Below are positions 34,290-64,000 of a stretch of 64,000 nucleotides of DNA, piece by piece. The number at the start of each line of letters is the position of its first letter. Position 1 is the stretch's first letter. The notes beneath the pieces were generated by a model that saw nothing but the letters and a program-made list of their open reading frames with translations, did no database searches and was not told where the DNA came from. Origin of the DNA: Eubacteriaceae bacterium (GTDB taxonomy: Bacteria > Bacillota > Clostridia > Lachnospirales > Lachnospiraceae); contig CAJTDQ010000001.1 of NCBI GenBank assembly GCA_910574895.1, positions 372,001 through 436,000 on the forward strand. Reading direction: 5' to 3'. The position numbers and the translations under genes were made by a program.

Positions 34290-36569
34290 CTACTTTATCA
34301 TCGTATTAGACCATGCATAATCGACCTCTTTATAAGCAGGATTTACCTTTGTTAAAATCTTGGTATAGATTGCATTGTGACCAACTGCCGTACTCATAAG
34401 ATCATTGTCATACAACGCTGATGCCACATCATGAATGCTATATGAATATACATCACTATATACGATATTACCATCACTGGTCTTTGCGTAAGCTCTTACC
34501 AGATATGATATAGTATACCCCGTCTTATTCAATCCGCCTACATTCATAGTTCTTGCATAATACTGTGCTGTCTTTGATAAACCTAGTTGTGCATTGAGTT
34601 TTCCTGTTTCTGTTGCCGCATAAGTTTTCACATATGTACTGTCATTATCTATAACCAGATCTTCTGATGTGATTGGTGTATTTCCATATACAAGTCCATA
34701 TATTAAACCTAATTCCTCATATTCTCCTTCCACAGAATAAACCACTCTAAGTCCTAATTTTCCTTCTTCGCCTCCCATATTACTTGACATCTGATATCCT
34801 TCAATCTTCACTTCACTATAAACCACACTCCCATCAGACAGTTTTGCATAAGCTCTCACATGATAATCTATATTATATCCTCCAGCGATATCCATTGTCC
34901 GTACATAATATAATGCCGTCTCTGAATCTCCCATCTGCACTTCTGACTTACCTGCTTCTGTAGCCTGATAAGAAACAACAAACTCACTTCTTCCATCAAC
35001 AATCATTTCTTTATCTGCATCTGTTATCCCATCTGCTAATCCGATAACCAGTCCAAACTCTGATATTTCCTGACCTTCAACCAGATTTTCTCTCTGATAT
35101 ACCGTTCTGATTCCCACATCATCTGTCGCACCATCCAATGATGTAGATATCTGGTATCCTGTGATTCCAACATCCTGTGAAATCAGATTTCCTGAAATAT
35201 CCCACTGTTCTCTTAACCAGTTATCCCTGCTCTGCAACCAGTCCCTTAAAAATTCTACAGAATCATCATATGTATTCCATTCTCTAAAGTTTGCGTAACT
35301 ATATGCATCTGCCATATCCGGATTTGTGATACTCCATCCTGCTCCTAACTGTTCCTTTGAAATATAATTTCTTTCAAAAGAGTTTCTATACTGCTTTACA
35401 AAAGCGTCTATTCCAAATCCTTCATCAGCCTTACTTCCGTCATAGATCGCCTGAATATATGGAAGATACTGTTTATAATATTTCACCACAAGATTTTTGA
35501 ACTTTTCATTTTTCATTAAGTAACTATACCATACAAGTTCTTGTGCCTTGAAACTATTATAGGTCACACCATCTTTATATTCTCCGCTATAATATTCACC
35601 AAGATTTCCTGATGAAAGATCATAATCCCAACAAGGACCACCATACATAATATTGTCTTTTACATAAAACCTTGTAGAACTGAAATTAAAATCATTATTT
35701 CTAAAAATTTCATTTACTAAATAGAACTTTGCAAACGAATCCATATCTACATATTTCGATGCTTCCTCATAATCGTCCTTCTTTAAAGCCTCTTCGAAAT
35801 TTGCAATCAGATTTTGTGTGTTGATAATTTTATCCTGATATAACGCAATCTTATCAGTCTCATCCGGTCCAAACTCAGGTTCACCTAACATAAACAATAT
35901 CCCCAGACCACTTCTTTCCAAATGAAATGTCTCTGCCGCATCTCTTCCATTATTATCAACTTCCAATACGACATCATTGTTTGTTATTTCTTACGGGTCA
36001 TTAATTTCAATACGTCCTGAACCTGTTTCTACTGATTCAATTAATAAATAGTTTCCTGAATAGGTTCCATTGATATATATATCGACAAATCGGCATTCAC
36101 TGGTATAATCAAGACCCATTGTAGTCGCTAACTGCATTACTAACGCATTCCTGATTAATGCTTTATCAAATGCATTTGCCAACAGACTCCATTTTTTCGC
36201 TTTGCCTTTCATTCCCAGCAATTCCTGTTTTTTACTCAACTTAAAATTATATGGTTTCTTTTCAGCTCCTGCCGTAGAATTTCCACGAATCTTAATATCA
36301 CTGGCGAAATCAACAACGTCTTTATTGTTTCCTGTATTATCCGCAATTGTAATACCTACATTCGCTTTTCCACCCGGCTGTTTTGCAAAATATGTGCCAC
36401 TGATATCTCTTCCGCCTGTAGAAATATAAATTTGCGGAATATCATTATAATCTTTTACTGCATCCTCTATCGTAATCTTTGCTGTAGTCCCTTCTGTCTC
36501 CTGTCCTTCTGTTCCCACTGCCTTAACCATGATGTCATGCTCACCAAGGGCAACGCCTTCTACATCCAT
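34290..36569 (-). pseudogene. C-terminal half of a broken double-CotH protein, with two type B modules
   Basis: Two open pieces in the same frame (35991-36569 and 34290-35966) are separated only by a TAA at 35991-35993 inside a conserved CotH stretch (RIEINDP, stop, EITNNDVVLEVDNNG; intact relatives read RIDIDAYNAESNDILLEL). Together they encode the end of an Ig-like domain, a complete CotH domain (IKIRGNSTAGAEKKPYNFKL, NAFDKALIRN, GPCWDYDLSSGN) and two tandem GYQIS (type B) modules ending AWSNTMIK. The 5' end overlaps the upstream frame by ten bases and lacks a ribosome site. I read it as the 3' part of the gene that starts at 40468. Confidence 0.8.
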
Positions 36570-39500
36570 TCTTTCTGTTCATCTGCACCATATACTGCTA
36601 TTTCCCAAATAGAATGACCGTAACCTGTAACACGTGCAGTTCCATGTATTTTAATGAATCGTGCTTCAACTGCATCCGTAAGAACAATTCTGTCATATCT
36701 GTTGGCGACTTCACTCTGATCCTTGATTATTGCTGCTGTTACGTAATTTTGTCCGTCTGTTGAAGTCTGTACTGTATAGTCTTTTGCCGCAGCATTCTCC
36801 CACACTGCGGCAATCTCTTTTACAGAATATACTGCACCTAAGTTTACAATAATCTCCTGTGGATCGCTCGACAGGGATTCCCATCTGGTATCAGCATTAT
36901 TATCAATTGCCAGACTTGCATCTCCAGAAGATGCCTCTGCCTTAATACCAGTATATCTTAAATAATTGTTTCCGTTTTCATTTACATCCGGCAATACTCT
37001 TCCCGCTAAAGCATCCTGTGTAAATGTAAATGCTGACTGTACATACACCTGAATGCTTACACTCTGTGAACTTCCACCATTATAATTTGCTCTTACAGAT
37101 ACCGTATGCTCCCCTTCTTCCACATCAGTAAAAGTATACACTCCTGCCTTTACATCCTTTTCTACCTGTTTTCCATCAATTGCAATTGTGTATGTATAAT
37201 TTTCCTGTCCCGTTACCTCTGCGATTATTACTCTAATTGTATTATATGTATCTGATACTGCTGTCATCTCAGGAGCATCTACATCTATCTGCTCTCTGTC
37301 TGCTCCCGCATTACCAGTCTTGTCCAATACCGCAATTTCTCTTGCCTGAATACCCCAGCCTACATTTCCATTATAAAGAACTCTGATTGCTTTTACTGTT
37401 CTTACATCAGATACGATATCACTCATGTCTGCTATAGTCACATAAGGCAATGCATCCTGATTTTTATTTTCTGAAGGCATTTCATTCGCTGTTACTATTT
37501 TAACATTGTAAAATCTGTCTCCATCATCTGAATACTGTATTGTATAACCAATATCCGTTGGGGCAAGATTATTTCTTCCATCACGATACCACACTACAAC
37601 CTCATCAATTGCGCTGACACTGACTGTTTCGTTTAAATTAATCTGATAATATCCTGTATTGTTATGTGCTCCATCTACATGAATACCTACATAATTATCA
37701 TGATTATTGATAATACCATCTGTAATCGCCTTGCTGTTATTAATCCCTTCTTTCCATGAACTATAAGTAGAATCTGTTCCAAATGCTATATTATAATTAT
37801 TATTTCCTACCATTTCTTCTAACGAAATCGAACCCGTCACCATTACTGTACCACTGACACCTTCTGATACAAATCCATTAACATTCATTACCTGAACCTT
37901 AACTGTATGCTTTCCTGTTGACACATCTTGAATGACATTCACTTCTTCTGCTCTTGCATCAGATACTGCCTCTTTATCATCTACAAAAATTGTATAAGTA
38001 ACATTTTCTGTTGTACTCGCATTAAACTGTACTCCTATCTGATTGTCCTGTGGCGTTGTTAATAGCAAATTTGTCACATCTGCAACTTCTTCACCTTCTA
38101 CCGTTTCAGCATTTTTATCTGTATCCAGTACTGCAAACTCTCGAATCTGCATACCATATCCCGCCTGTTTTGGAAAATAAAGCCTTACATATCTCACAGT
38201 TCCGGAAACACCGCTCACATCATCAATTGTTCTATTATCTGCATCCAAAACTGCTTTATCTGCCGATGCCACATCACGGAAATTTTTTCCGTCAATAGAA
38301 TACTGTATACGATATGCCTTATTTAAAACAGTATCGTTCTCCTGACCATCTTTATACTGTACAACAACCTTATCGATAGATTCTGCTTTATAATATTTTC
38401 CTAAATCAATCGTTGCATATACCGGCTCTCCATTTTCATTTCCCCATGCACTGGATGTTTCTGCGTTGGTCAGTGCCAGATAGCCGTTCGTCAACTCTCC
38501 ATCGTTTAAGTATTCTATTTTTCCTTCATTATGACAATTCTTATATATTACTGCTTTTTTCTTTTTTGCCAGATTGTATGCATAACTTCCCATCTGGTCT
38601 CCTATATCCGTGAGAACCTCTTCATAATCCGTTGCATCAAACTGTTTTTTCAGATATTTTATTCTGCCTGTCATATATGATTTAAAATCATTTAAATATC
38701 CGTCGTAATTATTATATATTTTTAAAGAACCTGAAACATTTCCTGTTGCTCTCGCTTCATCTGCTGTTGCACATTCATGATGTCCTGCTGTATATAACTT
38801 ATCAATTCCCCATCCTGTATTTACACCTTTTGCATCAACAGAAAACTGATTATATGCCAAATCACTATAATTAGCATCAATAGATTTTCTGAGTGTATTT
38901 ACCACAGTATCAATCGTTCCATTCTCAGCTACCAGCTTATTAATCTCTGGAAGAACTTCATTAAATCTTTCCGTTACTCTTGCTGAAAACTCTTTATTTT
39001 TCATTAAGGCTCCAAACCAAGGATTATTCTGGGCGTGCATATCATTATCAGGATTTGCCGCTGCACCTTCTGCATTACCACTGGACAAATCCAAATCCCA
39101 GAGAGGTCCTGCATATAATTTTTCAATTCCTTCTGATGATTTTTTTATAAAAAATCGAACAGAACTGAAACTTACATCTGTAATACGGAAGAGTTCCGCT
39201 GTGATATAGTAATTTACAAAAGAATCTATATCAATTAACTCTCCAATTTCATCTAAAGTTCCATTTCCACCATTTTGTATTTTAGACTCCAGATTATTTA
39301 AGTAATTCAGCGTATATGTTTTCTTTGCTGCATATGTTTCATTAAATTCCAACCATTCCTGATGATCCTCATTGTTTGGATTTGCTGCATCAGTACCCGG
39401 TCCTTCCGGTTCATTAATCGTAAATCCTACATTCATTAATGTTATATGTGCATCTAAATGAGCATCTTTTCCAGCATCTCTATCTGTCATATCTAACTCT

Positions 39501-40468
39501 AGAAGAATGTCATGATTGTCCGGATTTTCTGCATCAATATCAACACGCGTAGAACCTGCTTCTACTGATTCCAGAAGAAGATATGATCCCATATAATGAC
39601 CATCCAAATAAAAATCAAACGGCTCACATTCACTTGTATACTGATATTCCTGATTTGCCTCCATTACTTTATGATGAAATTGTACACCAATCTGATTTCT
39701 TATTAATGCCTTATCAAATGTGTTTGATAATAAACTCCATTTTTTTGCTTTCCCGAACCCAAACACATTTGTCTTACTGTCAAATTTAATGTTAAATGGC
39801 TTCTTTTGTCCAGACGATGTAGAATTGCCACGAAGTTTAATTGTTCCACTTCCCTCAGAATCAATATTACCATCCGCATCATATATTACCAGTGATGACT
39901 TTACATCCACTTTATCTCCGGATTTATATAAATCATGGTCACATGTCTTTGCATCTCTTGTAGTTGTTACATATATTTTTGCAATGCCTGTATCAATATT
40001 ATCAGCTTCTTTCGTAGTATATGTAAAATAATTTACTGCCGAAGCTTTACTTTCAAGGATTTCTTCCTCACCAGCTGCATTCGTTCTCTTTAAAACCTGT
40101 TTTACTGTAATTTCATAAGTTTCTCCGTCAACAAATCCCCAATCACTGATATCAACCATTGTACCCGATTTACTGACTGTCGCTTTTTTCTCTGTACCTA
40201 CATAAATATCAAATGTTTTTTGATCCGTTCCTGTCATTTGATATGTATCTTCATCTGCATCATTAAAAACAATTTTAAATCCACCGCTTCCCGTTCTAAA
40301 GTCGCACAGATACGCTTTCTTTGGTGCATTGAGTGATGTTATCTCTGTACTGCTAGGCAGATTTATTGTTTCCTCCGCCTTTGTTTCTGTTGGTGCATAA
40401 CTAATACCTGATAAAACAATTACCAGGCTTAAAATCATTGCTAACACCTTTTTGATTTCTCTCTTCAT
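36560..40468 (-). CDS. Secreted CotH-kinase family protein with discoidin domains (5' part of a broken giant)
   Basis: A 1302-residue frame: signal peptide 1-32; Ig/Fn3-like domain about 35-150; CotH domain about 160-615 with IKLRGNSTSSGQKKPFNIKF, NTFDKALIRN and GPLWDLDLSSGN, the W-D-x-D region being probably the metal-binding site; then three F5/8-type (discoidin, CBM32-like) domains (about 626-780, 890-1050, 1160-1296) separated by Ig-like domains (GKHTVKVQVMN, GEHTVSVRANY). CotH proteins of Bacillus spores are atypical protein kinases; the role of secreted clostridial relatives is unknown. The frame ends abruptly after the third discoidin domain (YGADEQKEWM), where about 40 residues of an Ig domain appear missing before the next frame. 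Good GGAG ribosome site. Confidence 0.85.
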   Translation of the reverse strand: MKREIKKVLAMILSLVIVLSGISYAPTETKAEETINLPSSTEITSLNAPKKAYLCDFRTGSGGFKIVFNDADEDTYQMTGTDQKTFDIYVGTEKKATVSKSGTMVDISDWGFVDGETYEITVKQVLKRTNAAGEEEILESKASAVNYFTYTTKEADNIDTGIAKIYVTTTRDAKTCDHDLYKSGDKVDVKSSLVIYDADGNIDSEGSGTIKLRGNSTSSGQKKPFNIKFDSKTNVFGFGKAKKWSLLSNTFDKALIRNQIGVQFHHKVMEANQEYQYTSECEPFDFYLDGHYMGSYLLLESVEAGSTRVDIDAENPDNHDILLELDMTDRDAGKDAHLDAHITLMNVGFTINEPEGPGTDAANPNNEDHQEWLEFNETYAAKKTYTLNYLNNLESKIQNGGNGTLDEIGELIDIDSFVNYYITAELFRITDVSFSSVRFFIKKSSEGIEKLYAGPLWDLDLSSGNAEGAAANPDNDMHAQNNPWFGALMKNKEFSARVTERFNEVLPEINKLVAENGTIDTVVNTLRKSIDANYSDLAYNQFSVDAKGVNTGWGIDKLYTAGHHECATADEARATGNVSGSLKIYNNYDGYLNDFKSYMTGRIKYLKKQFDATDYEEVLTDIGDQMGSYAYNLAKKKKAVIYKNCHNEGKIEYLNDGELTNGYLALTNAETSSAWGNENGEPVYATIDLGKYYKAESIDKVVVQYKDGQENDTVLNKAYRIQYSIDGKNFRDVASADKAVLDADNRTIDDVSGVSGTVRYVRLYFPKQAGYGMQIREFAVLDTDKNAETVEGEEVADVTNLLLTTPQDNQIGVQFNASTTENVTYTIFVDDKEAVSDARAEEVNVIQDVSTGKHTVKVQVMNVNGFVSEGVSGTVMVTGSISLEEMVGNNNYNIAFGTDSTYSSWKEGINNSKAITDGIINNHDNYVGIHVDGAHNNTGYYQINLNETVSVSAIDEVVVWYRDGRNNLAPTDIGYTIQYSDDGDRFYNVKIVTANEMPSENKNQDALPYVTIADMSDIVSDVRTVKAIRVLYNGNVGWGIQAREIAVLDKTGNAGADREQIDVDAPEMTAVSDTYNTIRVIIAEVTGQENYTYTIAIDGKQVEKDVKAGVYTFTDVEEGEHTVSVRANYNGGSSQSVSIQVYVQSAFTFTQDALAGRVLPDVNENGNNYLRYTGIKAEASSGDASLAIDNNADTRWESLSSDPQEIIVNLGAVYSVKEIAAVWENAAAKDYTVQTSTDGQNYVTAAIIKDQSEVANRYDRIVLTDAVEARFIKIHGTARVTGYGHSIWEIAVYGADEQKEWM

Positions 40469-40711: not shown

Positions 40712-40714
40712 CTA

Positions 40715-43312
40715 CTATTTTATTTTTATAACTTTTCTATTACTCCAGGCTCCAAAATACCGAATCTTTTTAACAACTCTTACACCTCTAACTTTAACAT
40801 ACAACTTTTTAAACTTTCTTAATTTCTTAACGGCCAGATTAACTTTTGTTTTTTTAACTAATTTTGTAACTGTTTTTTTCTTAGTGAATTTCTTAGAAGA
40901 AGAAATTCTTACCTGATATTTTGTTACATTCTTCAATTTCTTAAAAATTAACTTGATTTTCTTTGCATTTTTCTTTTTTATTGCTTTCTTAACTTTTCCC
41001 TTAGCCACTTTAATCGGAGCAGTTAATTTATTATCCATATTTGAAACTTTTGATGTAGTCGGTTTCTGTGTATTTTGCTCTCCGGTTGCTTGTGGTGTTG
41101 TTTCCTCCGGTGTCGTCGCTTCCGGTGTAGTTGGTGCTTCAATAACCGGCTTACTTTCTTCATATGCCTTTACCATGTCAATTCCCCACTGATCACAAAG
41201 CCATATGTTTCTATTTTCCATCCAGTCACGCAAAAACTCTATAGGCTCCTGCCAAATCTTCCAGCCTGATTCTGCCGCATAACTATACCCGTCATCATTC
41301 GTTAAAAACCACCCTGCCCCCAATTCATTTTCAGGTCTGTAATTTCTCTCAAATGATGCTCCATAATTATCAACTAGATATTTTACACTTATTATTGTTT
41401 CAGAATCATTCTTATAAATATTCTGAATCTTATATTGCAATTCTCTATATCGCTCTTTCACTTTATTATAAAAAGTATCATTTCTAAATAACTGTTTATA
41501 CCAGTTCATATTCTGACAATAATACCCTTTATAACTGACACCATCTACGTAATAATCTTTATAATAAGATGATTTACAATTTCCACTGGATAAATCGTAA
41601 TCCCAGCATGGTCCTGCGTATATCTTGTTGTCCTTAACAAAAAATCTTGTTGAACTAAAATTAAAATCAACGTTTTTAAATAATTCATTTACTATATAGA
41701 AATTTACAAAACTGTCTTCATCGATATATTGTAAAATTTCTTCGTAACTCTGGTTGCGTAATGATGTTTCAAAACCATTCAAATATTGTTTAATTCGCTC
41801 AATTTTTTCATCTACCTGAGCATCTGTTAAGTCGTCTCCCTTTTCGGGATCATTTACATCAAATGTCGTGCTAAGAACATCTGTTGTAAAATGATCCACA
41901 TCCGGTTCATTTCTTGTACCAAGCTCTAATAATATATCATTGCTCTCTGCATTATATGCATCAATGTCAATTCTTTCCTTCTTTGCCTCAACTGCTTCTG
42001 TAATCAAATAATTTCCATTAAACTTGCCATTTAAATAAACTTCCACAAATCTATTGTCACAGGGATAAGGAACTCCAACCTCTTCAGCAAAATCGTGGAC
42101 TAAACTATTTCTTATTAACGCCTTATCAAAAGCATTTGCTAACAGACACCATTTCTTTCCTTTTTCCATACCTAATAAACTTTGTTTTTTGCTAAGTTTA
42201 ATATTCCATGGTTTCTTTGGTGCCCCTGCTGTAGTATTACCACGAATTTTTATGTTACATCCGCTATCAACAAAATCTTTACTATTTCCTCCATTTTTAT
42301 CAATTACTGACACTGTAACATCTGCATTCTCATGATAACTGCTTGATATATTCCCTTCTGTGTAAATATATATCTGTGCAATATCTGTATTAGTTCCTGC
42401 ATTTCCCTGTACAGTAAATTTTGCACTAGCCATAGTAGACTCTTTTCCTGTTTCATCTGTATTGGCAACATACAAAATATGTTCTCCCGGAGATAAATCT
42501 CCGATTTCCTTTTCTGAAAGATAGTAACCGGAACCTTTTACAGTTTTCACTTTATTATCTTTATTATCAATATAAAAATTATATCCTGCTGACTCCCCAG
42601 CCTCATTAAAATATACGATATATTTTCCGGTATATCTGTAATAATCTCTGATTCTTAAGTTTGACAAAACAGGGATAAGCTCTCCCTGAGGGTCATTTCC
42701 AAAAAATCCAATTTCAAATATGGAATCGCCATAATTCGTTGTTCTGGCAGTACAGTTAATTCTGACTGTTCTTACACGAATTTCATCAGACAATTTCAGA
42801 TTATCTGTTCTCTTTCCATGTGTATCCGTAATCTGTGTCAATGTCTGAAAATTTATTCCATCTGCCGAAACTTCTACAGTATATTCTTTTGCAGAAGCTC
42901 CCTCCCAGTAAATGGCAATATCTTTAATCGAATATAGATTACCTAAATCTACAGTTAAATGTTGTGGATCTACTCCATGCTCTGACTCCCATCTGCTGTC
43001 TGTATTTCCATCAATTGCTTTTTTTGCTGCATTCTTCTCTGATGAAGCAGATGCTGTTACACCTTCATATTTCGTATAGTTTTTGTAAGAAATACCATCT
43101 ATCATCATACTATCCGACCCTAAAGCTCTGATGATTTCAGCATCTCCGCCATTTACAATGTCTGCATCAACTGTAACATTGTCTAAATTTACCTTGATTT
43201 CTTCTGCTTTTACCTTTTTTATCACAGTATCTGCCGGAAGAACATTGATTGATGTTACAACCAATGCAAAAGATAAAAATAAAGATGCAATTTTGTGAAT
43301 AGTTACTTTCAT
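40715..43312 (-). CDS. Secreted CotH-kinase family protein with discoidin domain and type A Fn3 end
   Basis: An 865-residue protein: signal peptide 1-34; F5/8 (discoidin/CBM32-like) domain about 74-207 (ASASSEKNAAKKAIDGNTDS, IFEIGFFG); Ig-like domain 215-300; CotH domain about 305-715 with IKIRGNTTAGAPKKPWNIKL, NAFDKALIRN, STRFFVKDNK and GPCWDYDLSSGN all intact; a Thr/Pro-rich linker about 720-755; lysine-rich Fn3 domain 770-865 ending FGAWSNRKVIKIK. Its own promoter and terminator are likely, since there are gaps of about 190 bases on one side and 250 on the other. The target of the putative kinase is unknown; the discoidin domain suggests carbohydrate binding. Confidence 0.88.
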   Translation of the reverse strand: MKVTIHKIASLFLSFALVVTSINVLPADTVIKKVKAEEIKVNLDNVTVDADIVNGGDAEIIRALGSDSMMIDGISYKNYTKYEGVTASASSEKNAAKKAIDGNTDSRWESEHGVDPQHLTVDLGNLYSIKDIAIYWEGASAKEYTVEVSADGINFQTLTQITDTHGKRTDNLKLSDEIRVRTVRINCTARTTNYGDSIFEIGFFGNDPQGELIPVLSNLRIRDYYRYTGKYIVYFNEAGESAGYNFYIDNKDNKVKTVKGSGYYLSEKEIGDLSPGEHILYVANTDETGKESTMASAKFTVQGNAGTNTDIAQIYIYTEGNISSSYHENADVTVSVIDKNGGNSKDFVDSGCNIKIRGNTTAGAPKKPWNIKLSKKQSLLGMEKGKKWCLLANAFDKALIRNSLVHDFAEEVGVPYPCDNRFVEVYLNGKFNGNYLITEAVEAKKERIDIDAYNAESNDILLELGTRNEPDVDHFTTDVLSTTFDVNDPEKGDDLTDAQVDEKIERIKQYLNGFETSLRNQSYEEILQYIDEDSFVNFYIVNELFKNVDFNFSSTRFFVKDNKIYAGPCWDYDLSSGNCKSSYYKDYYVDGVSYKGYYCQNMNWYKQLFRNDTFYNKVKERYRELQYKIQNIYKNDSETIISVKYLVDNYGASFERNYRPENELGAGWFLTNDDGYSYAAESGWKIWQEPIEFLRDWMENRNIWLCDQWGIDMVKAYEESKPVIEAPTTPEATTPEETTPQATGEQNTQKPTTSKVSNMDNKLTAPIKVAKGKVKKAIKKKNAKKIKLIFKKLKNVTKYQVRISSSKKFTKKKTVTKLVKKTKVNLAVKKLRKFKKLYVKVRGVRVVKKIRYFGAWSNRKVIKIK

Positions 43313-43401
43313 GTTTGTTTACCTCCTTTATTAATATCCGAACCCTTTCTATTTCACATTATAACAACTTCATTATATGTTTGCATCTACTTTTTTCACA
43401 C

Positions 43402-46106: not shown

Positions 46107-46108
46107 CT

Positions 46109-53800: not shown

Positions 53801-56800
53801 TCTACAGATGTCCAAATTTCATACTTTTCAGCATAAGCTGCTTCCCATGTAATTTTAACTGTATTGATTGTCTGTACTCTTCCAAGGTCAATATCAATAT
53901 ATTCATCATTGTTATCTTTTGCCTGCCATCTTGTTGTCATATCACCATCAATGGCATTTCCTGCTTTACTTACGTCATTTGCTTCTGATGAAGCTGTAGC
54001 TGTAGCACCAAGCGCGAAATTATCGCTGCTCTGTACCACATCTCCCTCAATCTGTATTGCTGCAGAACCATACGCTGAATCAATATAATTATCTTTAACC
54101 GCTATTGCCTTAATTGTTGTGTCACTCGATACTAAGAACTTCTCTGTATATACTTTTGACTCTGTTGTCGGAACTGTTCCATCTGTTGTATAGTAAATCT
54201 TTGCCCCGTTTTCAGCTGTTGAAAGTTCTACAATCTGAGTATCCTCAAACTTCTTTGTTCCTGTAACATTGTTTGTCACCTGTCCACCTGCTAATGATGT
54301 TGCTTTAATAACCGGTGTGGCAACCTGTGTCAAATCAAATTTCTTCGCTGTATCAATCGTAAACGCAACCGTGGCCATAGAACCGACCTTTGCTGTTCCT
54401 GCTACAGTTCCATCTGCTTTCTTTATCGTAACAGTTTGTGTTGTTGCTGTCGGATTCCAAACCTCTGCGGTATAAGTTGTTTTATTTCCTTCATCTTTTC
54501 TATATACAGAGCCTTGAATATTTCCAACAATTGAGTAATCATTTGTACGATATCCCAACTGATCCATCGCTGCAATAAACCAGAGAGTATTTGCTCTGTC
54601 TTCTGTCTGCACTTTTGCTACATTTGCTTCAAATTTCTCATAAGCTCTCTGTGCACTCGTCTGTGAAAGGAACGGCCATGTAATATGCTGCCATCCATTA
54701 TCCGGAGTAACATACTTATCCGGATCATGCCATGTGTCAGCCTCTTCCTGTTTTCCTTCCGCAACCAATTGGTCATATATTCTTCTCTCTATGTTTTGTG
54801 CGTAAACCGTATCATCTTCTAATCCCTGATAAATCTTTGCACATTTTTCCTGATTCATACCATAGTTTGTAAGATACTCTGAAATCGGCAGCCATTGAAT
54901 ACCATATACATATACCGGCTGTCCACCAAAATATGTACCATATCCCATAGATGCACCATAGATCTGTCCTGTTGCCTGGAACGGATATTCCGGCAGCCAG
55001 TTATCTTCATCATAGTCAAACCAGTACTGTTCTACTGCATCCATCTCAGTCGTAAATCCATAGGCACCGGCATCAATATATTTCTGATTTCCTGTAGCTT
55101 CACCCCAGAGATACATACCTACCCAGCTGAATAATGCCTCCGATGCAGATTCCTGATTGTTACCGGAATCACTATCTGCATATCCACCAGCCCATGAATG
55201 TCCTGTATATTGATCAAATGCTCTGAATTTACAGAACATATTCCCGTCATCTTCCGGCTCTAATGGATCTGCATAATCTCTTACAAGCAGCTCTACCATG
55301 TCTTTATAATCGTTATAGAACTCCTTGTCATATGCCGCTAGAACAGCAGCACCAAACATAAAATATCCATATGTAAAATGATGGTCACAGATAGCCGCAT
55401 TCGCTCCATACGCACTGTCCGGATAATATAATGTTCCCCAGTCTTTATTATATATCAAGTAGCATCTGTCATCTCCACCATCATAATTAAACCAGTCAAC
55501 CATAATGCTCTTTAATTTTGCTAATATCTGTTCTTTAACTTCTGTCTCCCCTAACTGATCTGCCATAATAGCACTGATAGCTAATGGATGAACATTTTTT
55601 CCTTCCCAGTATGCATCTGATACCGGTGCTGTGTTTAATTTTGATGCAACCACCTGATTTAAGTAATCAATCATTTCACTGCTGTCAAACATCTCACTGT
55701 CCGGTTTTGCAAATGTTGGGAGAAGTCCTGAGAACTGCTGTGTTGTTTCAAATTTATTTGCCCAGACAGACTTCATATTACCACGAACAGATGTGTATAT
55801 AGCAGCCGGATTATTTGCCGCACTGGAATGTTTCCACTGATGTGGGAATAAACAATGCATTGTCACATTTGAAAATCCACTTCTCATTACTTTTGTAGAA
55901 GCTGTATAAGTTGTAATAATCTTTGAATTGTCTTTATTATATGAATAATCTACTGCTGTATCTGTTACAAATGCATAACCATGTTTATAGTATGTATCAA
56001 TGTCCGTCTTCTTTGTCATCGCAGCTACTGACATATAATTGTCTCTTGCTGATGGGAAAGTTACCTTTAATTTATAATTACCGGCACCAATCATAACTTT
56101 AAATTCTGTTCCTGCCGGTACATTTACTTCAAAATATGATCCCTCATTCTTAGCCTTTGTATTTTCATCATCAAACGATTTAAATCCAATATGATCTGTG
56201 ACAATGGTATCCCCTTTATTTGTAAGAATTTTATTACCATTTCCATCAAAAAATTCTGTAATAGACGCACCACTTAAAAATGCTACTGTATTATCGCAAA
56301 ACTCATTATAAATATAAGGAGATCCTTTTACGATGGTAGATTTCATCTGAAGTGCATCATCATCCATCAGTCCCAGCTGTACATGATAATCACCGTGAGT
56401 TTCAACCCTGTCATATGCTGTTGTACCGTCAAGGTTTTCCGGACTAATATAAAAGTCTCTTCCTGTCTCACTGCTCTGATCTGTTCCTAAATCATTTTCT
56501 GTTCTGACTCCTACCCAGCCGGATGTTGCAAGTAATACCCCTAGTCCTTTCTTTGTAAAACTAGCTTTTAATGGTGTTGAACAAAGTAAGTTACTAAATG
56601 TCTGCACCAACGCTGAAGACCACCAGCTATTAGAATCTATCGGTGTTTTCATTGTTTCTTCATTAATAAAGGTTGGAAGTTTATTCTTCTCATTATACAT
56701 TTCTCCTGAAACATAAGAACCTTTTCCATTCGCATTATTAATAATCTGTCTTGTCGGAAGATCAGCAACCGTCTCATTCTCCTTGCTGTCTCCTTCATTA

Positions 56801-58101
56801 TATTTGTACACAGACAGTTCTGCGATACCAATACCGCTTCCACTTTCTACCTTTGTATATCCAAGTACTTTTACATAACGGACATTTTGTCTATATAACG
56901 TAAAATTATCTATTTTATATGCATAACCTCTTGTTACACGATGTACTGTTGTCCAGTTCTTATTATCTGCCGACACCAATACATCATAAATTTTTCCTGC
57001 ATCTGCATTCCAATTAATAACTATTCTTCCAAGAGTATACGCCTGTCCCAAATCTACTGTAAGCCACTGGTCATCACCCTGATAAGATGTAAACGCTGTG
57101 GATGTATTTCCATCTACTGCATTCTCCGGTTTCACATTGTTATACGCATCCGGTCTTATATTACCTTCCTCGTCTTTCATCCACCATTCATCTCTTGTTC
57201 CTGAACATGTTACTTCTTTATTCAATGCCAAATTCTCGCCATAATCTTTCGGTGGCTTTGCCGAACCACCTGTACCATAAACCTGAAATTCATACAAAGA
57301 GCATCCATAGGCTATTGCTCTCTCTACACATAATACTCTGACATATCTAGCCTTCGTTGCACTTAAATCTGTTTTATTGATGGTCTGCTTTAAGTTTGCA
57401 CCGGAATCAACAACAATACCATTGTCGCCCTTGCTTCCTTCTGCAACGTTTACTTCACAAATTCCACTGCCAAGTTCTTCGTTTGTAGACGGATTAAAAG
57501 CAACAACTTTTAATGTATGTTTTCCGGCACTCAACTTAATATTTCCCTGAGTACCGCCATGATTTGTAAATTTATAATTATCCGGCGCTACTGCAATCTG
57601 ATCTCCATCATATACTTTATAATGTGCATCTTCAACTGAAGTCCAGTTTGCACTAATCTGGCCAAATCCATCTGTTAAACTATTTACAGTGTAGGAAACA
57701 GCCATATCGACATATTCACCCTTTTTCTTACCCTTTGTATAAACAGTTGTCCAGTTATCTTCATCATTTGAAAACTGAATCTCATAAGTTTTTGCATGAG
57801 CAGCCTCCCAGTGAAGATAAATATGGTCAATATCTGCCTCTTTTCCAAGATCCACATACATCCACTCATTTTTATCATCCTGTTTTGCCTGCCACCTTGT
57901 TTCATCGTCACCATCTACTGCGAGTTCCGCTGCATCATTTCCATTCTGGGAACTTGCATAAACCGGTCTGCCATAGGAAAGGTTATATGGTTTCTCTGTA
58001 TCCGCCGCCTGAATGTCAAATAATTCACTCTGTGGGCAGACTGTTACAACCATAGTTAATGTAAGTACTATTGATGTAATTTTTCTCATAATTTTAGACA
58101 T
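50854..58101 (-). CDS. Giant GH81 endo-beta-1,3-glucanase with discoidin, chitobiase-type and Big_2 domains, type A Fn3 end
   Basis: A 2415-residue secreted protein. Signal peptide 1-32; discoidin domain about 37-277, interrupted by an Ig-like insert (about 112-220); second discoidin 290-437; GH81 catalytic domain about 445-1190 with CDHHFTYGYFMFGAA (about 905) and NNQESASEALFSW (about 980), the conserved acid and glutamate regions of GH81; CHB_HEX_C-type domain about 1260-1345 (GAKIYYTTDGTVPTTES); third discoidin 1360-1485; second CHB_HEX_C domain 1488-1560; two Big_2 domains (about 1572-1735); two more discoidin domains (1743-1887, 1992-2143) each followed by an Ig-like domain; a Pro/Thr linker; and a lysine-rich Fn3 end. 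It cleaves beta-1,3-glucan at the cell surface or outside. It has its own promoter region and terminator. Confidence 0.93.
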   Translation of the reverse strand: MSKIMRKITSIVLTLTMVVTVCPQSELFDIQAADTEKPYNLSYGRPVYASSQNGNDAAELAVDGDDETRWQAKQDDKNEWMYVDLGKEADIDHIYLHWEAAHAKTYEIQFSNDEDNWTTVYTKGKKKGEYVDMAVSYTVNSLTDGFGQISANWTSVEDAHYKVYDGDQIAVAPDNYKFTNHGGTQGNIKLSAGKHTLKVVAFNPSTNEELGSGICEVNVAEGSKGDNGIVVDSGANLKQTINKTDLSATKARYVRVLCVERAIAYGCSLYEFQVYGTGGSAKPPKDYGENLALNKEVTCSGTRDEWWMKDEEGNIRPDAYNNVKPENAVDGNTSTAFTSYQGDDQWLTVDLGQAYTLGRIVINWNADAGKIYDVLVSADNKNWTTVHRVTRGYAYKIDNFTLYRQNVRYVKVLGYTKVESGSGIGIAELSVYKYNEGDSKENETVADLPTRQIINNANGKGSYVSGEMYNEKNKLPTFINEETMKTPIDSNSWWSSALVQTFSNLLCSTPLKASFTKKGLGVLLATSGWVGVRTENDLGTDQSSETGRDFYISPENLDGTTAYDRVETHGDYHVQLGLMDDDALQMKSTIVKGSPYIYNEFCDNTVAFLSGASITEFFDGNGNKILTNKGDTIVTDHIGFKSFDDENTKAKNEGSYFEVNVPAGTEFKVMIGAGNYKLKVTFPSARDNYMSVAAMTKKTDIDTYYKHGYAFVTDTAVDYSYNKDNSKIITTYTASTKVMRSGFSNVTMHCLFPHQWKHSSAANNPAAIYTSVRGNMKSVWANKFETTQQFSGLLPTFAKPDSEMFDSSEMIDYLNQVVASKLNTAPVSDAYWEGKNVHPLAISAIMADQLGETEVKEQILAKLKSIMVDWFNYDGGDDRCYLIYNKDWGTLYYPDSAYGANAAICDHHFTYGYFMFGAAVLAAYDKEFYNDYKDMVELLVRDYADPLEPEDDGNMFCKFRAFDQYTGHSWAGGYADSDSGNNQESASEALFSWVGMYLWGEATGNQKYIDAGAYGFTTEMDAVEQYWFDYDEDNWLPEYPFQATGQIYGASMGYGTYFGGQPVYVYGIQWLPISEYLTNYGMNQEKCAKIYQGLEDDTVYAQNIERRIYDQLVAEGKQEEADTWHDPDKYVTPDNGWQHITWPFLSQTSAQRAYEKFEANVAKVQTEDRANTLWFIAAMDQLGYRTNDYSIVGNIQGSVYRKDEGNKTTYTAEVWNPTATTQTVTIKKADGTVAGTAKVGSMATVAFTIDTAKKFDLTQVATPVIKATSLAGGQVTNNVTGTKKFEDTQIVELSTAENGAKIYYTTDGTVPTTESKVYTEKFLVSSDTTIKAIAVKDNYIDSAYGSAAIQIEGDVVQSSDNFALGATATASSEANDVSKAGNAIDGDMTTRWQAKDNNDEYIDIDLGRVQTINTVKITWEAAYAEKYEIWTSVDGEEWTTVAKESGRVGEITSSFSATEARYVRMQGVSRGTAYGYSIFELEVYGAVQANAPTISPISGTYNGPQTVTMSTTVKGAEIKYTLDGTTPTEDSPTYTAPITINKSTIVRAVTYRKGMMLSEPTESSIVIAGTIALNKTSAKIAIDRTVQLSAITNESVTWTSSNTSVATVNANGLVTGKNAGLAVITAKTASGKTATCNVTVTEPVHITSISILAALEMRNKTSETMKLVIHPADTTDDTTAVWTTSNEHVVAVNENGTLTAKGEGTATITVKVGNFTATCEVLVGPAASNVEMAASAKYNVALKKPVTAYPGIAEGNISYITDGALTAGGNHAALGKTGWNYNGECYAIIDLGDTYDASTIDQILVQYKDQAENDTVMGRTYEILYSTNGLDFTSVYKSDKVTTADMDAQNCVIADVAGQKGAVRYVKIYYPQSAGYGIQVCEMAVLSTEQNAKTVEIERCADPADFTVTSEKICQIDYTITAGADQSDYKYVVYLDGNKVTDLITAGSGTIEEVTAGTHKVKVVSFYNGLTSEGITKEVTVDDGSLVPYVDSVRNLSKGAKVTVDAIEAVQQEGSKDPQTLTDGEISANTDRCVETTWGSKTATIMLDLGSAVDKNLIDEVLIAFKANNTNATAYNIQFSEDGVNYEKVIDKTGAAYKEALEDKFDPQKYSKDTVRYVQINLTDGNANWGYQISEIAVMGTEAFMPKEAEGLAVSSTEYNKITVSFNGETSQLYNVYVDGVIKGMNVQAGTYTYNGIDGGKHTVKVTAMLGGIESKGVTQDITVEQAPTTTPVPTTTPVPTTPPATTPQQSTPNVTTGENDTTPQVTTDENDTTIVTTPDVTSNDNESTTASGQKSTTSDNGNVTTKQKVTAKISVGKTKVKKAIKKKTAKKIKITLKKIKGASSYQVKVSIKKRFKNKKKITITKMVKKVKFTIKLKKLKKSKKYYVKARAVRVVAGRKYYGKWSKGKKVKIRK

Positions 58102-58308
58102 AAGAATTCCTCCGTATCTTAATAATATACTTATATTATAAGATGTTTTACCGCCCCCCTCAACAATAAAAAAGTTTTTCCGATATTTTTGTAAAATTTA
58201 ATGAATATTTATTTTTACATCCCTTTAAAACGCTTATAAATAAAAAAATATTAGAACAAATATACTATAAAAATTTTTCTTACTAAAAATATTTTTATTG
58301 TTTTTTAT

Positions 58309-58351
58309 AAAAAAAAGAAATCTGGTAATTAAATTTAACTACCAAATTCCT
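58309..58351 (-). terminator. Terminator after the 3D-domain gene
   Basis: Read leftward, GGAATTTGGTAGTTA pairs with TAATTACCAGATTTC, followed by eight T's. The rest of 58102-58308 is extremely AT-rich; nothing else is recognisable beyond a probable promoter zone for the GH81 gene. Confidence 0.85.
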
Positions 58352-58356
58352 TTTTA

Positions 58357-58959
58357 CTATTTTGCAACATACACATCACAATATCTGACTCCCCACTGCA
58401 AAGCCTTTGAATGTGAACTGAAATATACATCAATCTTATTTCCTTTAATCGCTCCACCTCGGTCTTCTACCGTATAAGTATGTCCGTCGATTACCACCTT
58501 TGTTCCAAATGGTAATTTTGTAGTGTCAGCAGCAATTGTTCTGCCTGCTGTTGCCTGTGTACCTGAAGCAGTAACTCCGTCTGTCTTACCACAACAGCTG
58601 CTACATCCACAATATCCTGTGATTTTATATGTTCCAATGTTTTTTAATTTGTTCTTTTTCTTTTTATAATTGCTCTTTTTCTTCGATTTCTTTTTTGCTT
58701 TTTCATTATATGAAAGAACTATTTTCTGCTTTTTCACACTAACTGTCTTTGTATTTTTCTTTGTTTTGTTTGCTAAAAGTTTATCCGTCTTATTATCTGA
58801 TTTCAGAACATTCTCTTTATTCACCGATTTATCTGTCGTCTGGGTTTCTGCCACTTTATTTTCAGTATAGTTTTTTACAATCATTGTACTGCCTATGACT
58901 GCAATAACAAGTGTTAAAGTTAATAATACGAAACCAATAACTAGTCTGGTCTTTTTCAT
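58357..58959 (-). CDS. 3D-domain cell-wall protein (YocH/MltA-like core)
   Basis: A 200-residue protein with one N-terminal membrane segment or signal (about 7-28), a long Lys-rich linker (about 55-110), and a C-terminal 3D domain with the three conserved aspartates: DTTKLPFGTKVVID, TVEDRGGAIKGNKIDVYF. The 3D domain is the catalytic core of MltA-like lytic transglycosylases and of YocH/Rpf2-type proteins that remodel peptidoglycan. Before it is a CGCSSCCGKTDG segment, a Cys-rich insert common in clostridial relatives. It stands alone between two GH81 genes and could open the wall for large secreted proteins (inference). Confidence 0.88.
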   Translation of the reverse strand: MKKTRLVIGFVLLTLTLVIAVIGSTMIVKNYTENKVAETQTTDKSVNKENVLKSDNKTDKLLANKTKKNTKTVSVKKQKIVLSYNEKAKKKSKKKSNYKKKKNKLKNIGTYKITGYCGCSSCCGKTDGVTASGTQATAGRTIAADTTKLPFGTKVVIDGHTYTVEDRGGAIKGNKIDVYFSSHSKALQWGVRYCDVYVAK

Positions 58960-59150
58960 AAATCTACTCCTTTACTGCATTTATATCATGCAAGGAGTAT
59001 ATTACATCTTTTATTACACTTTGTCAATAAAATATTACATTTTTGTTACATTTATATTTGTTTTGTTAATATAAAATGTCATATTTTTTTAGTTTTGAAA
59101 CAAAGATAAGGAGAGAAACTGCCCCTATCTTATATAATACATCCAATATT

Positions 59151-62100
59151 CTATGGTAATGTTTTAACAATCGTACCGCTCCAATCGTAATCTACCTCTT
59201 TGTAATCTGCATCTACTACTTTAAGAATATTTTGATATAAATATTTATGTCCTGATAAATTATTCATTAATGTCTTCTCATATAGCACCTTTGCAATATC
59301 AGCTACCCGGTAAGAACAGACATCACTATAATAATATGTACCATCCTCCATCAAAGCATATGCTCTCACTTTATATTTTGCCTGAAATTCTCTGGCATTT
59401 TTAGCCGAAAACAAAGTAGTTCTTGCAAAATACGTAGCTGTCTTTGAAATGCCCATTGTAACAGATAATGTCCCTACATTTGTTGATTCCATAGAAACTA
59501 TATATGGATTTTTAACACCTACATACATCTCACTGTCATCTACAGAATATGTCTGCTTTCCATTTTCAATAATTGCATATACAAACCCCCACTTAGAAAC
59601 TTTTTTGCCCTCAATTATTGGTTCTACAGAACCTATCACTCTGCTTCCCTCCGAGACCGAACTAATCTGATACCCCTCAACTTTAACATTTGGGTTGACT
59701 CGAATTGCAGGGGTTGGCTGCGTTGTTGTTTCCGGTGAAGTTATCTCCGATGTAGTCGTCTGTTCCGTTGTCTCAGGCTCTGTAACTGTTCCATCACTTT
59801 CATTATTAATCTTTCCATATGCATAATCAGACTTGAAACCGCCACTTTCTGAATATCTGATAAAGTAAAATACAATATATTTTCCTTTCCTTGATGTGAA
59901 ATCTTCCGTTCTTGACCACACACCGGAAACAGAATCCAATCCCCACGAAACAAATCCCATTTCTGCTTTATTTTCTGCAAGCTGTTTTGCTTCACTTTCT
60001 GTTTCAACAATTTTATATAAAACATTCACTGCATTATACTTTGTATCTCCTACAATATTGAATGTACCGTTCATATTCCTATCAAATGACAAATACATAT
60101 CCTCATTTATCATAATCGTTCCAGCCGGAATCCACTTTGCATAAAGAGTAAGATTTCCATTTGTCTTCTCTGTAATTTCTACAACTTTTGTATCATATGA
60201 ACTTTCCCGATACCAGCCATAGAAATCATATCCTTCTTTTTGAGGTGTATCCAGTTTTTTGTTTTCCCCAAAAATATATGTATTTGGATAGAGGCTGTCA
60301 TCACTCCTGCTTCCACCTGCCAAATCATAAGAAACCGCATAAGTGTTTCTTGAATAGTAAACCTTAAGTACCAACCCTCCATCTGACTGTACAACACCTG
60401 TTGTAATATTATTCAGATTAGATTTGTCAAAAGTGAATCCTGTAAAGTTTTTTATATCAGCTGTAACCTGTGTTTCTGCACCAGCATATTTAATATTGCT
60501 CTTAAGTAAAGAATACTCATCTGAATTCAAGTCTTTTCCATAATATTCTATAATATAAGATGATTTTTGAATGTCTTCTGAATTTACTATCGTCATCGCA
60601 TTTGGCACAGCATTTACAGATATTGTTTTCCCATCATCACCTGTAAAGTTTACTACCTCTGTGGAACCAGACGGATTATATACCGCATATGTATACACAT
60701 CATTTTTCTTAAATACAGTGCCCATAGCACTACTGCTTGTAAAACTCAAATCCGGCACACCGTAATCCTGTAATGCTCTGATATAATGATATGTATGAGC
60801 CTGTGATTCACCATCATTCACGGCCTCTTTTGTCCATATTGTATTCATAGCTTCATCCGGATCTGCCAGCGCATAATAAGAAGCCCACATATCATTCCAC
60901 AATGATGTACTTCCCCCATTTGCCTGCTCAAATGTCTTATCTGCATTGTAATATTTCTTTATATAATCACTGCCGGAAATATTGTTTGCATCATTTGCCA
61001 GATAAAATGACCATGACTGCATTGGACAAATCTGGATTCCCTGTGTATACTCTGCTCCAAACCATGTACCATAATCTGCTTTTCCTCCCCAGACCATTGA
61101 CGCCATTGGAGCAGCATAATTTGACTCATCTATTTTATAGGTGTCTTCATCCTTGTCGAACCAATAATCATCTGCAGCAGCAATTTCCGTTGTATACAAA
61201 TAAATACCTAAATCCCTTATTTTTGTATCTCCGGTTAACTCCCCGAAAAGAATTATTCCTGCCCATGCATTTACTGCCTCAGACGTTGATTCCTGATTAT
61301 TACCTGTTCTTTCATCTTCATATCCCGAAGCCCATGAGTGTCCTTCATAAGGAGAAAAACTTCTAAGATATGGATATGCATTCCCACAATCAGAAACGCA
61401 CTCCTCATTGCTTCTGTAAGGACATGCAATATCATATATCAACTGTTTTACAATATCCTTATAATTGTTCAGCCATGCTTTATCATACAAACCTATACTT
61501 GCTGCAGCTTCAATAAAATATCCATAATGAAAATGATGGTCATTAAACTGATCTACTGCATTAAATGAAGTTTGAAAACCTAAAAGAACTCCAACACCTT
61601 CACCTAAATATGTAAAATAATGTTTATCGTTGCTGCCTGAGTACGTAAACCAATCTTCAAGATTTTTTTCTAATCCATTTAATACTTTTTCGACACTTTC
61701 TTCATCTCCCACTGATTTTGCAGCCGCCACTACCTGTGCCGAACGGTTTAATTTCTTTCCATGATAATATGTCTCATGCCCTTCATCATTAGCCAGTGTC
61801 CAGCTTCCTGCCCCTGTCATATGTTTACTTACAAAATCATCAACATATTTTTGTAATTGCTGCCTGCCTTGTGCATCATCCTCTTTTAATGGCGGCATAT
61901 ATGGTAAAATACCTTTATATGTCATGTGTGTAGTATATGAATCTCCTTTCATAAACTTCATATACCCTCTCAGAGTTATCGCATTATTCTCCATATAAGA
62001 ATATCCTGACATATTCTTATACTGATGAGACTGAATCCCCATAATCGTCCCGTCAGCTGTGCTTTCATCCTTCTTATTTACTGTGTATGTATACTTTGTG

Positions 62101-63140
62101 CTGACATCACCTGTTTTTTCATTATAAATATAATCCGCAGTTGTATTTGTAATAAAATTAAACGCATAAGGTCTATACTCTTTTGCATAACTAATTCCCA
62201 GTTCGTCATTATGTGTTTTACTTTCATAAACCCATGCGAAAGACATATATGCTTTATCTTTTGACGAAAATGTAATTTTTAACTTTCCAATTTTATCATT
62301 ATGCGTTGTATCTGTTGTTCCTTCATGGCTTACCGAAGCACTTTCCGGTAGAAACAATGCATAATATTGATATGTAGCACCTGGAAAACCATTTACTGAA
62401 CTTGTTATATCATTTGTTCTGAACACTACCATCTTTGCTCCATTATATGTATCCTCATATACAATTTCACTCGGAAATGTCACGCGGAGTTTTTCCAGAT
62501 AAATAACATTTGAATCCTCTAATTCTAAAAACATAAAGGGACTTCCCTGTGTCATTGTCGTAACCATTTTCTGACTATCTTTAGATGGATTAGAAGTTAC
62601 TGCTCTGTATGACCAAGCTGTAATCTCATCTATATTATTATTCGTACATGTCCACTCCGGTGTAATTTTAAAATCACATAAAGTATCATTATCTTTTATA
62701 TTATAAGCACTGACATTTGTTGCATTACTGGTCATTGCAGGTTTCGTTACTCTTAAACCATCTTTTTTCATCAGATAACATAACGGAAATGCATAAGCCG
62801 TACCCGATAATGCCTCTGTTTTATCACTGTCTTTATCTCCTTCTAAATCCCATAACCAGTTACTTGCCCAGTCATTCGTATCAAGCGCCAAGTGATTTTT
62901 ATTATAATTTTCTGTTGTAAATCTATACTTTCCCTGTGTAGAAATTCTTGGCAGTTTTGCCGCCTCTGTTTCATTGGAACCTATTCCAATACTTCCCCCT
63001 CCTATTGCCTGTACCGGTAATGTATCCGCACTGACTTTTTCTGAAAACGCCCCCTCTCTCACATTAGAAAAAGCAAATGTTAAAAGCATTACCAGACAAA
63101 GAATAATTGCTATAACTTTCTTTATTTTTTTAATATTCAT
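59151..63140 (-). CDS. GH81 endo-beta-1,3-glucanase with type B end
   Basis: The start is set at MNIKKIKKVIAIILCLVMLL (ATG at 63140), seven bases after GGAGG; an in-frame ATG at 63206 would add 22 residues ahead of a normal signal peptide. About 1329 residues: signal peptide 1-35; GH81 domain about 65-800 with DHHFHYGYFIEAAA, GHSWASGYEDERTGN and NQESTSEAVNAW (about 613); a Listeria/Bacteroides repeat (Flg_new) about 937-1000 (YDLAGGSRSD, YDFYGWYRES, LTLYAKWI); an unrecognised domain 1010-1110; a Thr-rich linker; type B module about 1150-1329 ending WSGTIVKTLP. A weak stem near 59107-59139 may terminate it. Confidence 0.92.
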   Translation of the reverse strand: MNIKKIKKVIAIILCLVMLLTFAFSNVREGAFSEKVSADTLPVQAIGGGSIGIGSNETEAAKLPRISTQGKYRFTTENYNKNHLALDTNDWASNWLWDLEGDKDSDKTEALSGTAYAFPLCYLMKKDGLRVTKPAMTSNATNVSAYNIKDNDTLCDFKITPEWTCTNNNIDEITAWSYRAVTSNPSKDSQKMVTTMTQGSPFMFLELEDSNVIYLEKLRVTFPSEIVYEDTYNGAKMVVFRTNDITSSVNGFPGATYQYYALFLPESASVSHEGTTDTTHNDKIGKLKITFSSKDKAYMSFAWVYESKTHNDELGISYAKEYRPYAFNFITNTTADYIYNEKTGDVSTKYTYTVNKKDESTADGTIMGIQSHQYKNMSGYSYMENNAITLRGYMKFMKGDSYTTHMTYKGILPYMPPLKEDDAQGRQQLQKYVDDFVSKHMTGAGSWTLANDEGHETYYHGKKLNRSAQVVAAAKSVGDEESVEKVLNGLEKNLEDWFTYSGSNDKHYFTYLGEGVGVLLGFQTSFNAVDQFNDHHFHYGYFIEAAASIGLYDKAWLNNYKDIVKQLIYDIACPYRSNEECVSDCGNAYPYLRSFSPYEGHSWASGYEDERTGNNQESTSEAVNAWAGIILFGELTGDTKIRDLGIYLYTTEIAAADDYWFDKDEDTYKIDESNYAAPMASMVWGGKADYGTWFGAEYTQGIQICPMQSWSFYLANDANNISGSDYIKKYYNADKTFEQANGGSTSLWNDMWASYYALADPDEAMNTIWTKEAVNDGESQAHTYHYIRALQDYGVPDLSFTSSSAMGTVFKKNDVYTYAVYNPSGSTEVVNFTGDDGKTISVNAVPNAMTIVNSEDIQKSSYIIEYYGKDLNSDEYSLLKSNIKYAGAETQVTADIKNFTGFTFDKSNLNNITTGVVQSDGGLVLKVYYSRNTYAVSYDLAGGSRSDDSLYPNTYIFGENKKLDTPQKEGYDFYGWYRESSYDTKVVEITEKTNGNLTLYAKWIPAGTIMINEDMYLSFDRNMNGTFNIVGDTKYNAVNVLYKIVETESEAKQLAENKAEMGFVSWGLDSVSGVWSRTEDFTSRKGKYIVFYFIRYSESGGFKSDYAYGKINNESDGTVTEPETTEQTTTSEITSPETTTQPTPAIRVNPNVKVEGYQISSVSEGSRVIGSVEPIIEGKKVSKWGFVYAIIENGKQTYSVDDSEMYVGVKNPYIVSMESTNVGTLSVTMGISKTATYFARTTLFSAKNAREFQAKYKVRAYALMEDGTYYYSDVCSYRVADIAKVLYEKTLMNNLSGHKYLYQNILKVVDADYKEVDYDWSGTIVKTLP

Positions 63141-63243
63141 CTTTTCCTCCATATAAGATTTTTCTATGATTGCCAAAATAAATTTTAACATAATGTGCCT
63201 ATGCATTTCAGTGCATTTTTTTTATTCAGGTGTTCTTTTTATA

Positions 63244-63291
63244 TATATAAAAACTACTATTCTACAATTTCAAAATATAAAATAGTAGTTT
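63244..63291 (-). terminator. Terminator after the right-edge CotH gene
   Basis: Read leftward, AAACTACTATT pairs with AATAGTAGTTT around a 19-base loop and is followed by a T-rich run (TTTTATATAT), just past the stop at 63298. Confidence 0.75.
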
Positions 63292-63297
63292 CGCTAC

Positions 63298-64000
63298 TTA
63301 CTTACTAATGATTTTTTTACCTGCATGTTTTACATATGCTTTTACTTTATATCTCTTTTTACTTTTTGTATTTTTTAATACAAACTTATATTTCTTATTT
63401 CCCTTTATAATAGCAACTTTTTTATTTTTTCTATAAATAATATATCCATCAGCACCTTTTATTTTATTCCATGATATACGAACACCTTTGTCTATTTTTT
63501 TCACTTTACATTTTGGTGATTTTAACTTTATAGTCTTATTTACAAAAACAAAATCTGAATATATTTTCCCACCGCCATTCTTAATAAATGACCGCACTTT
63601 AAAAGTATATTTTATTCCAGGTTTCAACTTCTTTATAGTATATTCTCCGGCATATCCATTAAAAATTGTTTTTACAAGTTTATATTTTCCTTTTTGTGCC
63701 CTGCACCAGATTTCATTTCCATCTGCCTCTCCCGAATTGTACCATGATAAAGCAATACTTTTATAAGATTTCTTTACAGCTTCTAAGTCTTCTACTTTGT
63801 TATTTCTGATACCTGCCCATTCTTTACGTAAATAATCAACCCTGTTCTTTAACCAGTTTCTTAACATCGTAACATTTTCGCTGTAAGTTTTCGGATGATT
63901 TTCAAATTCCAATCCGATAGGATTATCGCAAATGGAATACCTCTTTGTCATACTCCATCCGGCACCGCCATTTGATACAGGTTGATAATTTCTTTCAAAA
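63298..64000 (-). CDS. CotH-kinase family protein (partial, N-terminus outside window)
   Basis: Only the C-terminal part is in view. At the right edge the frame is open and reads FERNYQPVSNGGAGWSMTK, matching the conserved CotH region (FERNYRPENELGAGW) of the neighbouring gene at 40715, so the first in-frame ATG at 63951 is internal. After the CotH end (LRNWLKNRVDYLRKEW) come two Fn3-like domains, the last one lysine-rich (YKVKAYVKHAGKKIISK), a divergent type A end. About 233 residues are seen. Confidence 0.85.
   Translation of the reverse strand, partial: FERNYQPVSNGGAGWSMTKRYSICDNPIGLEFENHPKTYSENVTMLRNWLKNRVDYLRKEWAGIRNNKVEDLEAVKKSYKSIALSWYNSGEADGNEIWCRAQKGKYKLVKTIFNGYAGEYTIKKLKPGIKYTFKVRSFIKNGGGKIYSDFVFVNKTIKLKSPKCKVKKIDKGVRISWNKIKGADGYIIYRKNKKVAIIKGNKKYKFVLKNTKSKKRYKVKAYVKHAGKKIISK

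Follow-up and report, generated by a model that had tools for sequence, protein, structure and literature searches.

Introduction

The carbohydrate-binding module (CBM) family CBM37 of Ruminococcus albus, as described in PMC4081043, is restricted to one lineage and occurs in 51–102 copies per genome on many secreted proteins, glycoside hydrolases (GH) and others, sometimes in tandem; orthologs elsewhere bear a different module, and CBM37 has been found by experiment to bind many polysaccharides as well as the cell surface. Here we describe a module, termed type B, carried by proteins encoded in a 64,000-nucleotide stretch (the window) of a Eubacteriaceae bacterium genome assigned to the Lachnospiraceae (assembly GCA_910574895.1, contig CAJTDQ010000001.1, positions 372,001–436,000 of the forward strand). 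Type B is real, unclassified and mobile, and may keep exported proteins on the surface of the cell that makes them. Its likeness to CBM37 is one of genomic signature: lineage restriction, many copies, varied secreted cargo and some tandems are common to both. They differ in that binding by CBM37 is experimental, while type B is known here from sequence and model. Five stretches of the R. albus 7 plasmid pRUMAL01 listed no glycoside hydrolase product.

Other known systems resemble type B in single respects. Dockerin and X-module-dockerin ends are likewise C-terminal tags on many secreted enzymes of one organism, and combine a sandwich with two helices; fibronectin type III (FN3) superfamily members, CBM56 included, have a sandwich with which that predicted for type B can be aligned. 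The module was noticed in a sequence-only reading of the window, which had overlooked fungal-wall enzymes as its commonest recognised cargo, as well as the lysine-rich FN3 ends (type A) on like enzymes in the window. New beyond that reading are the limits of the lineage in the samples searched, the cargo, the predicted fold with its helical hairpin, and the exchange with type A.

Results

Type B copies in the window

Five copies of type B are spread over four open reading frames (ORFs), all on the minus strand:

34290–35966, minus strand: ORF with a type B tandem, the 3′ portion of a disrupted CotH gene (PF08757 positions 144–322)
34806–35159, minus strand: type B copy 1 of the tandem, the FN3-like half without the helical hairpin (alignment; profile positions 1–123)
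34293–34799, minus strand: type B copy 2 of the tandem, full length and C-terminal (profile E 1e-78)
35991–35993, minus strand: in-frame TAA that splits the tandem-bearing CotH gene, upstream of ORF 34290–35966
43506–46106, minus strand: CotH carrier protein, 866 amino acids (PF08757, E 6e-37)
43509–44033, minus strand: type B module at the C-terminus of the CotH protein (profile E 2.5e-85)
46109–48022, minus strand: GH16 carrier protein, 637 amino acids (PF00722, E 2.8e-16)
46130–46642, minus strand: type B module, 6 residues before the C-terminus of the GH16 protein, used for fold prediction
59151–63206, minus strand: GH81 carrier protein, 1351 amino acids (PF17652, E 1.6e-48)
59163–59675, minus strand: type B module, 3 residues before the C-terminus of the GH81 protein

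Pairwise identity between the five copies was 33–51%, and every pair matched by BLASTP; since even the weakest pair gave E 7e-18, the likeness is far beyond chance. As a control, the family profile was run at E 1e-3 against 4073 reversed ORFs and matched none. In four copies the distance to the stop is 0, 0, 6 and 3 residues. The sequence-only reading had placed all five within about six residues of the C-terminus, which holds for these four; copy 1 of the tandem is internal, and its final ~50 residues, those of the hairpin, are missing. The region had also been drawn as extending to 63690, and a profile search found no type B copy between 63207 and 63690. The stop codon at 35991–35993 reflects either gene decay or an assembly error. 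Upstream of this split gene, ORF 36560–40468 has an F5/8C domain at its end.

Predicted fold and database searches

When the four window carriers were compared with Pfam (2025) and NCBIfam (2026) at E up to 10, no family covered type B, in agreement with the earlier description of the domain as undescribed; the only match over it was Peptidase_M4 (8.5 bits, E 3.5), under the 22.4 cut-off of that family. A 67-row type B profile matched no chain of the PDB at E up to 10. The family is thus new to the libraries searched, while lineage-specific terminal targeting modules are a known kind.

The AlphaFold model of the GH16-borne copy (predicted local distance difference test score, pLDDT, 93.6) showed a fibronectin-III-like sandwich (residues 1–122) followed by a helical hairpin. 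Type B is most likely an independently folding terminal tag of ~165 residues, its predicted structure comprising an FN3-like beta sandwich, a two-helix hairpin and a short tail. Residues H143, Y147, Y158 and W165 of the hairpin and tail are conserved. The module is mostly acidic, with a median pI of 5.3 (range 4.1–9.3, 67 copies). The motifs by which it was first recognised are present in the window copies and drift across the wider family, in which 'ART' is mostly 'AMT'. In six genomes a GH16-like protein was found that has the sandwich but not the hairpin.

Type B is limited to one Lachnospiraceae lineage in the samples searched

The genome of the window encodes seven full type B copies, one half copy and one copy in a 3436-residue CotH-like protein, together with a divergent, nearly stand-alone secreted type B protein; the divergent group is tied to the main group by hhalign (99.9%, E 4e-32). 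A further match in this genome, C2:31976, was taken as chance, lying inside an ORF that we take to encode a phosphomutase-like protein. Type B was matched at E 0.001 or better in 21 of the 23 genomes of the genus, with 35–41 matches in each of four genomes and one to three in many, these being partly divergent or sandwich-only.

Genome sets for the family, class and phylum were samples, in which at most 9–12 candidates were scored per genome. Outside the genus, strong matches occurred in a single one of 299 family genomes (G318, 58 matches), and beyond the family the 391 class and 299 phylum genomes, the window's own included, gave weak hits only. Weak hits (19.5–24.5 bits) arose in 3 of the 299 family and 9 of the 391 class genomes; several resemble what we take to be DNA polymerase I, and others look on inspection like remote FN3-like domains. 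In 200 family genomes the divergent-group profile had two weak matches, at E 1e-7 and at E 2e-6. No type B match was obtained in a plasmid search. When 84,980 species of a collection were scanned with one pattern, there were 81 matches, of which 77 loci were kept, all titled Lachnospiraceae or Eubacterium; the labels RUG, RUI and Lapin on matching records presumably denote rumen and rabbit.

Position within proteins

Position was counted in 192 ORFs, each with a distinct module sequence, that remained once identical or same-module ORFs had been merged; in one of them the locus boundary truncates the 3′ end. In 165 of the remaining 191, type B lies within 12 residues of the C-terminus; in G318 it is C-terminal in 47 of 57 proteins. 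The C-terminal bias seen in the window therefore stands as a strong tendency, qualified by a few long-tailed copies and by five ORFs with an N-terminal copy directly after the signal segment (L196–L199, L215), in one of which it precedes a GH64 domain. The other 26 ORFs comprise these five, the nearly stand-alone protein of L153, L082 with its 33-residue tail, five weak matches outside the lineage (L116, L117, L139–L141) and fourteen members of the divergent group (L135 repeating the L004 protein). Many of these fourteen carry an insert between the hairpin and a final Y-x-x-V-x-Y-x-W-like tail, the tail itself being terminal; L221 and L222 continue for ~240 residues. Tandem copies were seen in three ORFs.

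Divergent type B ends are found on secreted proteins that form a cluster (L004, L151, L153, L192), some of them very large; the nearly stand-alone copy adjoins it. Such divergent copies occur also in genomes with few matches. Inside this cluster, L153 7754–8785 is an ORF with long terminal EEGR repeats, partly masked.

Cargo

All 56 carriers scanned in G318 have an N-terminal hydrophobic stretch, and 50 of 57 ORFs passed a stricter start-plus-signal rule. A role of type B in export, one of those earlier suggested, is unlikely because of these N-termini, and an export signal of the type IX secretion system kind was set aside. Only two of the 56 have a lipobox-like motif. Type B ORFs differ from sortase-anchored proteins in that no LPxTG was found within the last 60 residues of 197 of them; the 25 Pfam families listed as commonest for the carriers do not include SLH, LysM or similar anchors, which were not sought one by one.

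Pfam families were tallied for 56 of the 57 G318 ORFs (the 117-residue fragment L183 was left out) and for a second set of 43, taken up to a length limit from 83 complete carriers outside SVDZ01 records after removal of similar ones. The tallies give the 25 commonest of 45, 45 and 59 families, and counts of rare families are lower bounds. Among the families listed, G318 carriers had GH18 (7), GH81 (4), GH16 (4), GH43 (3), alpha-1,3-glucanase (2) and Glyco_hydro_cc (2), with at least one each of GH64, GH76, GH115, GH5, subtilase, M64 and CotH; CBM6 was present in 7 and F5/8C in 10. The second set had GH81 (6), GH16 (5), GH43 (4), CotH (4), GH18 (3), alpha-1,3-glucanase (2), Glyco_hydro_cc (2) and CBM5/12 (2). 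The genome of the window has two further carriers, one a Glyco_hydro_cc enzyme and the other a second GH81. Proteases, GDSL lipases, and LRR and CotH proteins are also among the cargo. As first noted, the module is attached to unrelated catalytic folds.

Chitin, beta-1,3-glucan, alpha-1,3-glucan and alpha-mannan as enzyme targets together suggest fungal walls as the probable target. The families GH18, GH81, GH16, GH64, GH76, Glyco_hydro_cc and the alpha-1,3-glucanases together account for at most 21 of the 56 and 18 of the 43 listed carriers: fungal-wall enzymes are the commonest recognised group, but in these lists the majority of carriers have none of them. The cargo is not purely fungal, since GH5, GH115, GH43 and a rhamnogalacturonase-like family, better known from plant polysaccharides, also occur. 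A plant-fibre secretome was considered and rejected (GH9 in none of seven genomes). GH81 was found in every one of ten genomes tested, even in G022, where type B has no match, and is thus a trait independent of the tag. In earlier work that PMC7200989 describes, rumen clostridia lysed fungal walls. The open-licence literature searched yielded no paper on fungal-wall digestion by GH81 of rumen Lachnospiraceae, or on a Lachnospiraceae C-terminal anchor.

Exchange with type A in the C-terminal slot

Type A, a lysine-rich FN3 module, shares with type B the C-terminal slot, the enzyme families and the genomes in which it occurs, and the two were never found together on one ORF (48 ORFs with type A, 199 with type B). 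They are not homologous (hhalign 0.3%). Three type B carriers of the window have type A counterparts, giving the B/A pairs 43506/40715 (CotH), 46109/48262 (GH16) and 59151/50854 (GH81):

40718–41005, minus strand: type A terminal module of the CotH counterpart 40715–43312
48265–48561, minus strand: type A terminal module of the GH16 counterpart 48262–50670 (evidence includes a fold prediction)
50857–51153, minus strand: type A terminal module of the GH81 counterpart 50854–58101

On a tree of GH81 catalytic domains there were at least 10 changes of terminal state, and at least seven gains or losses of type B, which bears out the mobility claimed from the window; L011, broken by a stop, was not counted.

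More type A modules end window proteins at 10144–10407, 11096–11401, 22040–22312 and 29343–29618. The last of these modules ends ORF 29340–30302, which begins with GTG and comes directly after a presumably nitrilase-like ORF (30329–32212); the two are possibly one gene broken by a frameshift. The genus member G022 (one contig, 2.86 Mb) has five GH81 genes, three of them ending in type A. In the GH81 proteins of L245 and L253 the terminal domain is lysine-rich but of another kind (by eye, LRR-like and Big_2-like), which would fit repeated origins of a cationic C-terminus.

Other features of the window

A cobalamin riboswitch (Rfam RF00174, 120 bits) lies at 15594–15784 on the minus strand, upstream of ORF 12544–15480. 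Inside the glucanase cluster, 58357–58959 encodes a small secreted lysine-rich protein with what we take to be a 3D-domain-like end.

Discussion

The predicted fold, terminal position, signal-like N-termini, cargo, mobility and exclusivity with type A are directly supported. That type B binds something, that its partner lies on the bacterial surface and that the target is fungal, we infer. Our tentative preference is for a swappable retention module that would keep exported proteins on the producer's surface, as CBM37 does in R. albus. Type B, borne by exported proteins at the C-terminus or, rarely, at the N-terminus (many of these proteins being predicted to act on fungal walls), would bind a wall glycan or a surface protein of the producing cell, and one cell might thereby carry a whole enzyme set on its surface. 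Three points favour the producer's surface: no single ligand would account for so varied a cargo, LPxTG was not seen and lipoboxes were few, and in CBM37 there is an experimentally tested precedent whose genomic signature is similar. Retention would also suit the terminal position, the slot shared with type A, the carriers that already own a CBM6 (7/56) or F5/8C (10/56) domain, and the 58 matches of a single genome.

Several observations weigh against this proposal. Being acidic (median pI 5.3), type B cannot use the charge mechanism guessed for type A. It is also kept by genomes that have one to three matches, which would be odd were a dedicated receptor needed. Nine of 29 GH81 ORFs, in seven genomes, carry neither type A nor type B, so that the terminal slot is optional, and this tells against a dedicated anchor. 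The main and close rival of retention is a new CBM fixing enzymes to the fungal wall, for instance to beta-1,3-glucan or chitin, which we regard as possible if less probable: the GH16-like proteins with a sandwich and no hairpin fit a sugar-binding domain equally well, and type B could be the substrate binder of the carriers, most of them, that lack CBM6 and F5/8C.

It is rather unlikely that type B serves as the docking or surface-retention signal of a cell-bound fungus-eating machine (a 'mycosome') of herbivore-gut Lachnospiraceae, in which a recognition module unrelated to dockerin would bring together up to ~58 tagged chitinases, glucanases, mannanases, proteases and helpers per genome; that recognised fungal-wall enzymes make up at most 21 of 56 carriers lowers its probability. 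The boldest reading, in which type B would dock proteins to a scaffold receptor and so build an extracellular complex, the fungal-wall counterpart of the cellulosome, is more doubtful still. With tens of proteins per genome ending in a sandwich and a pair of helices, the pattern resembles X-module-dockerin ends, and exclusivity with type A and the gathering of divergent copies in one cluster of large secreted proteins would also suit it; however, Pfam shows no dockerin in the four window carriers (nor is it among the 25 commonest families listed for the 56 and 43 carriers), the type B alignment has none of the DxDxDG-type repeats that mark dockerins, genomes with a single match exist, and no receptor was identified, none having been searched for. 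Least probable is an ordinary stabilising or spacer FN3 domain with no partner, since, although the fold is FN3-like and secreted enzymes often contain FN3 and Ig-like linkers, neither the terminal position nor the conserved H143, Y147, Y158 and W165 would be expected of it, and repeated gain and loss in one slot also speaks against it.

If retention on the producing cell is correct, one profile would mark much of the secreted arsenal in a gut-bacterial group about which little is known. Tests could then address which organisms digest fungi or fungal feed inside the guts of herbivores, and by what means Gram-positive bacteria lacking cellulosomes hold big enzyme sets; for this the matched A/B enzyme pairs within a single gene cluster offer a natural swap experiment.

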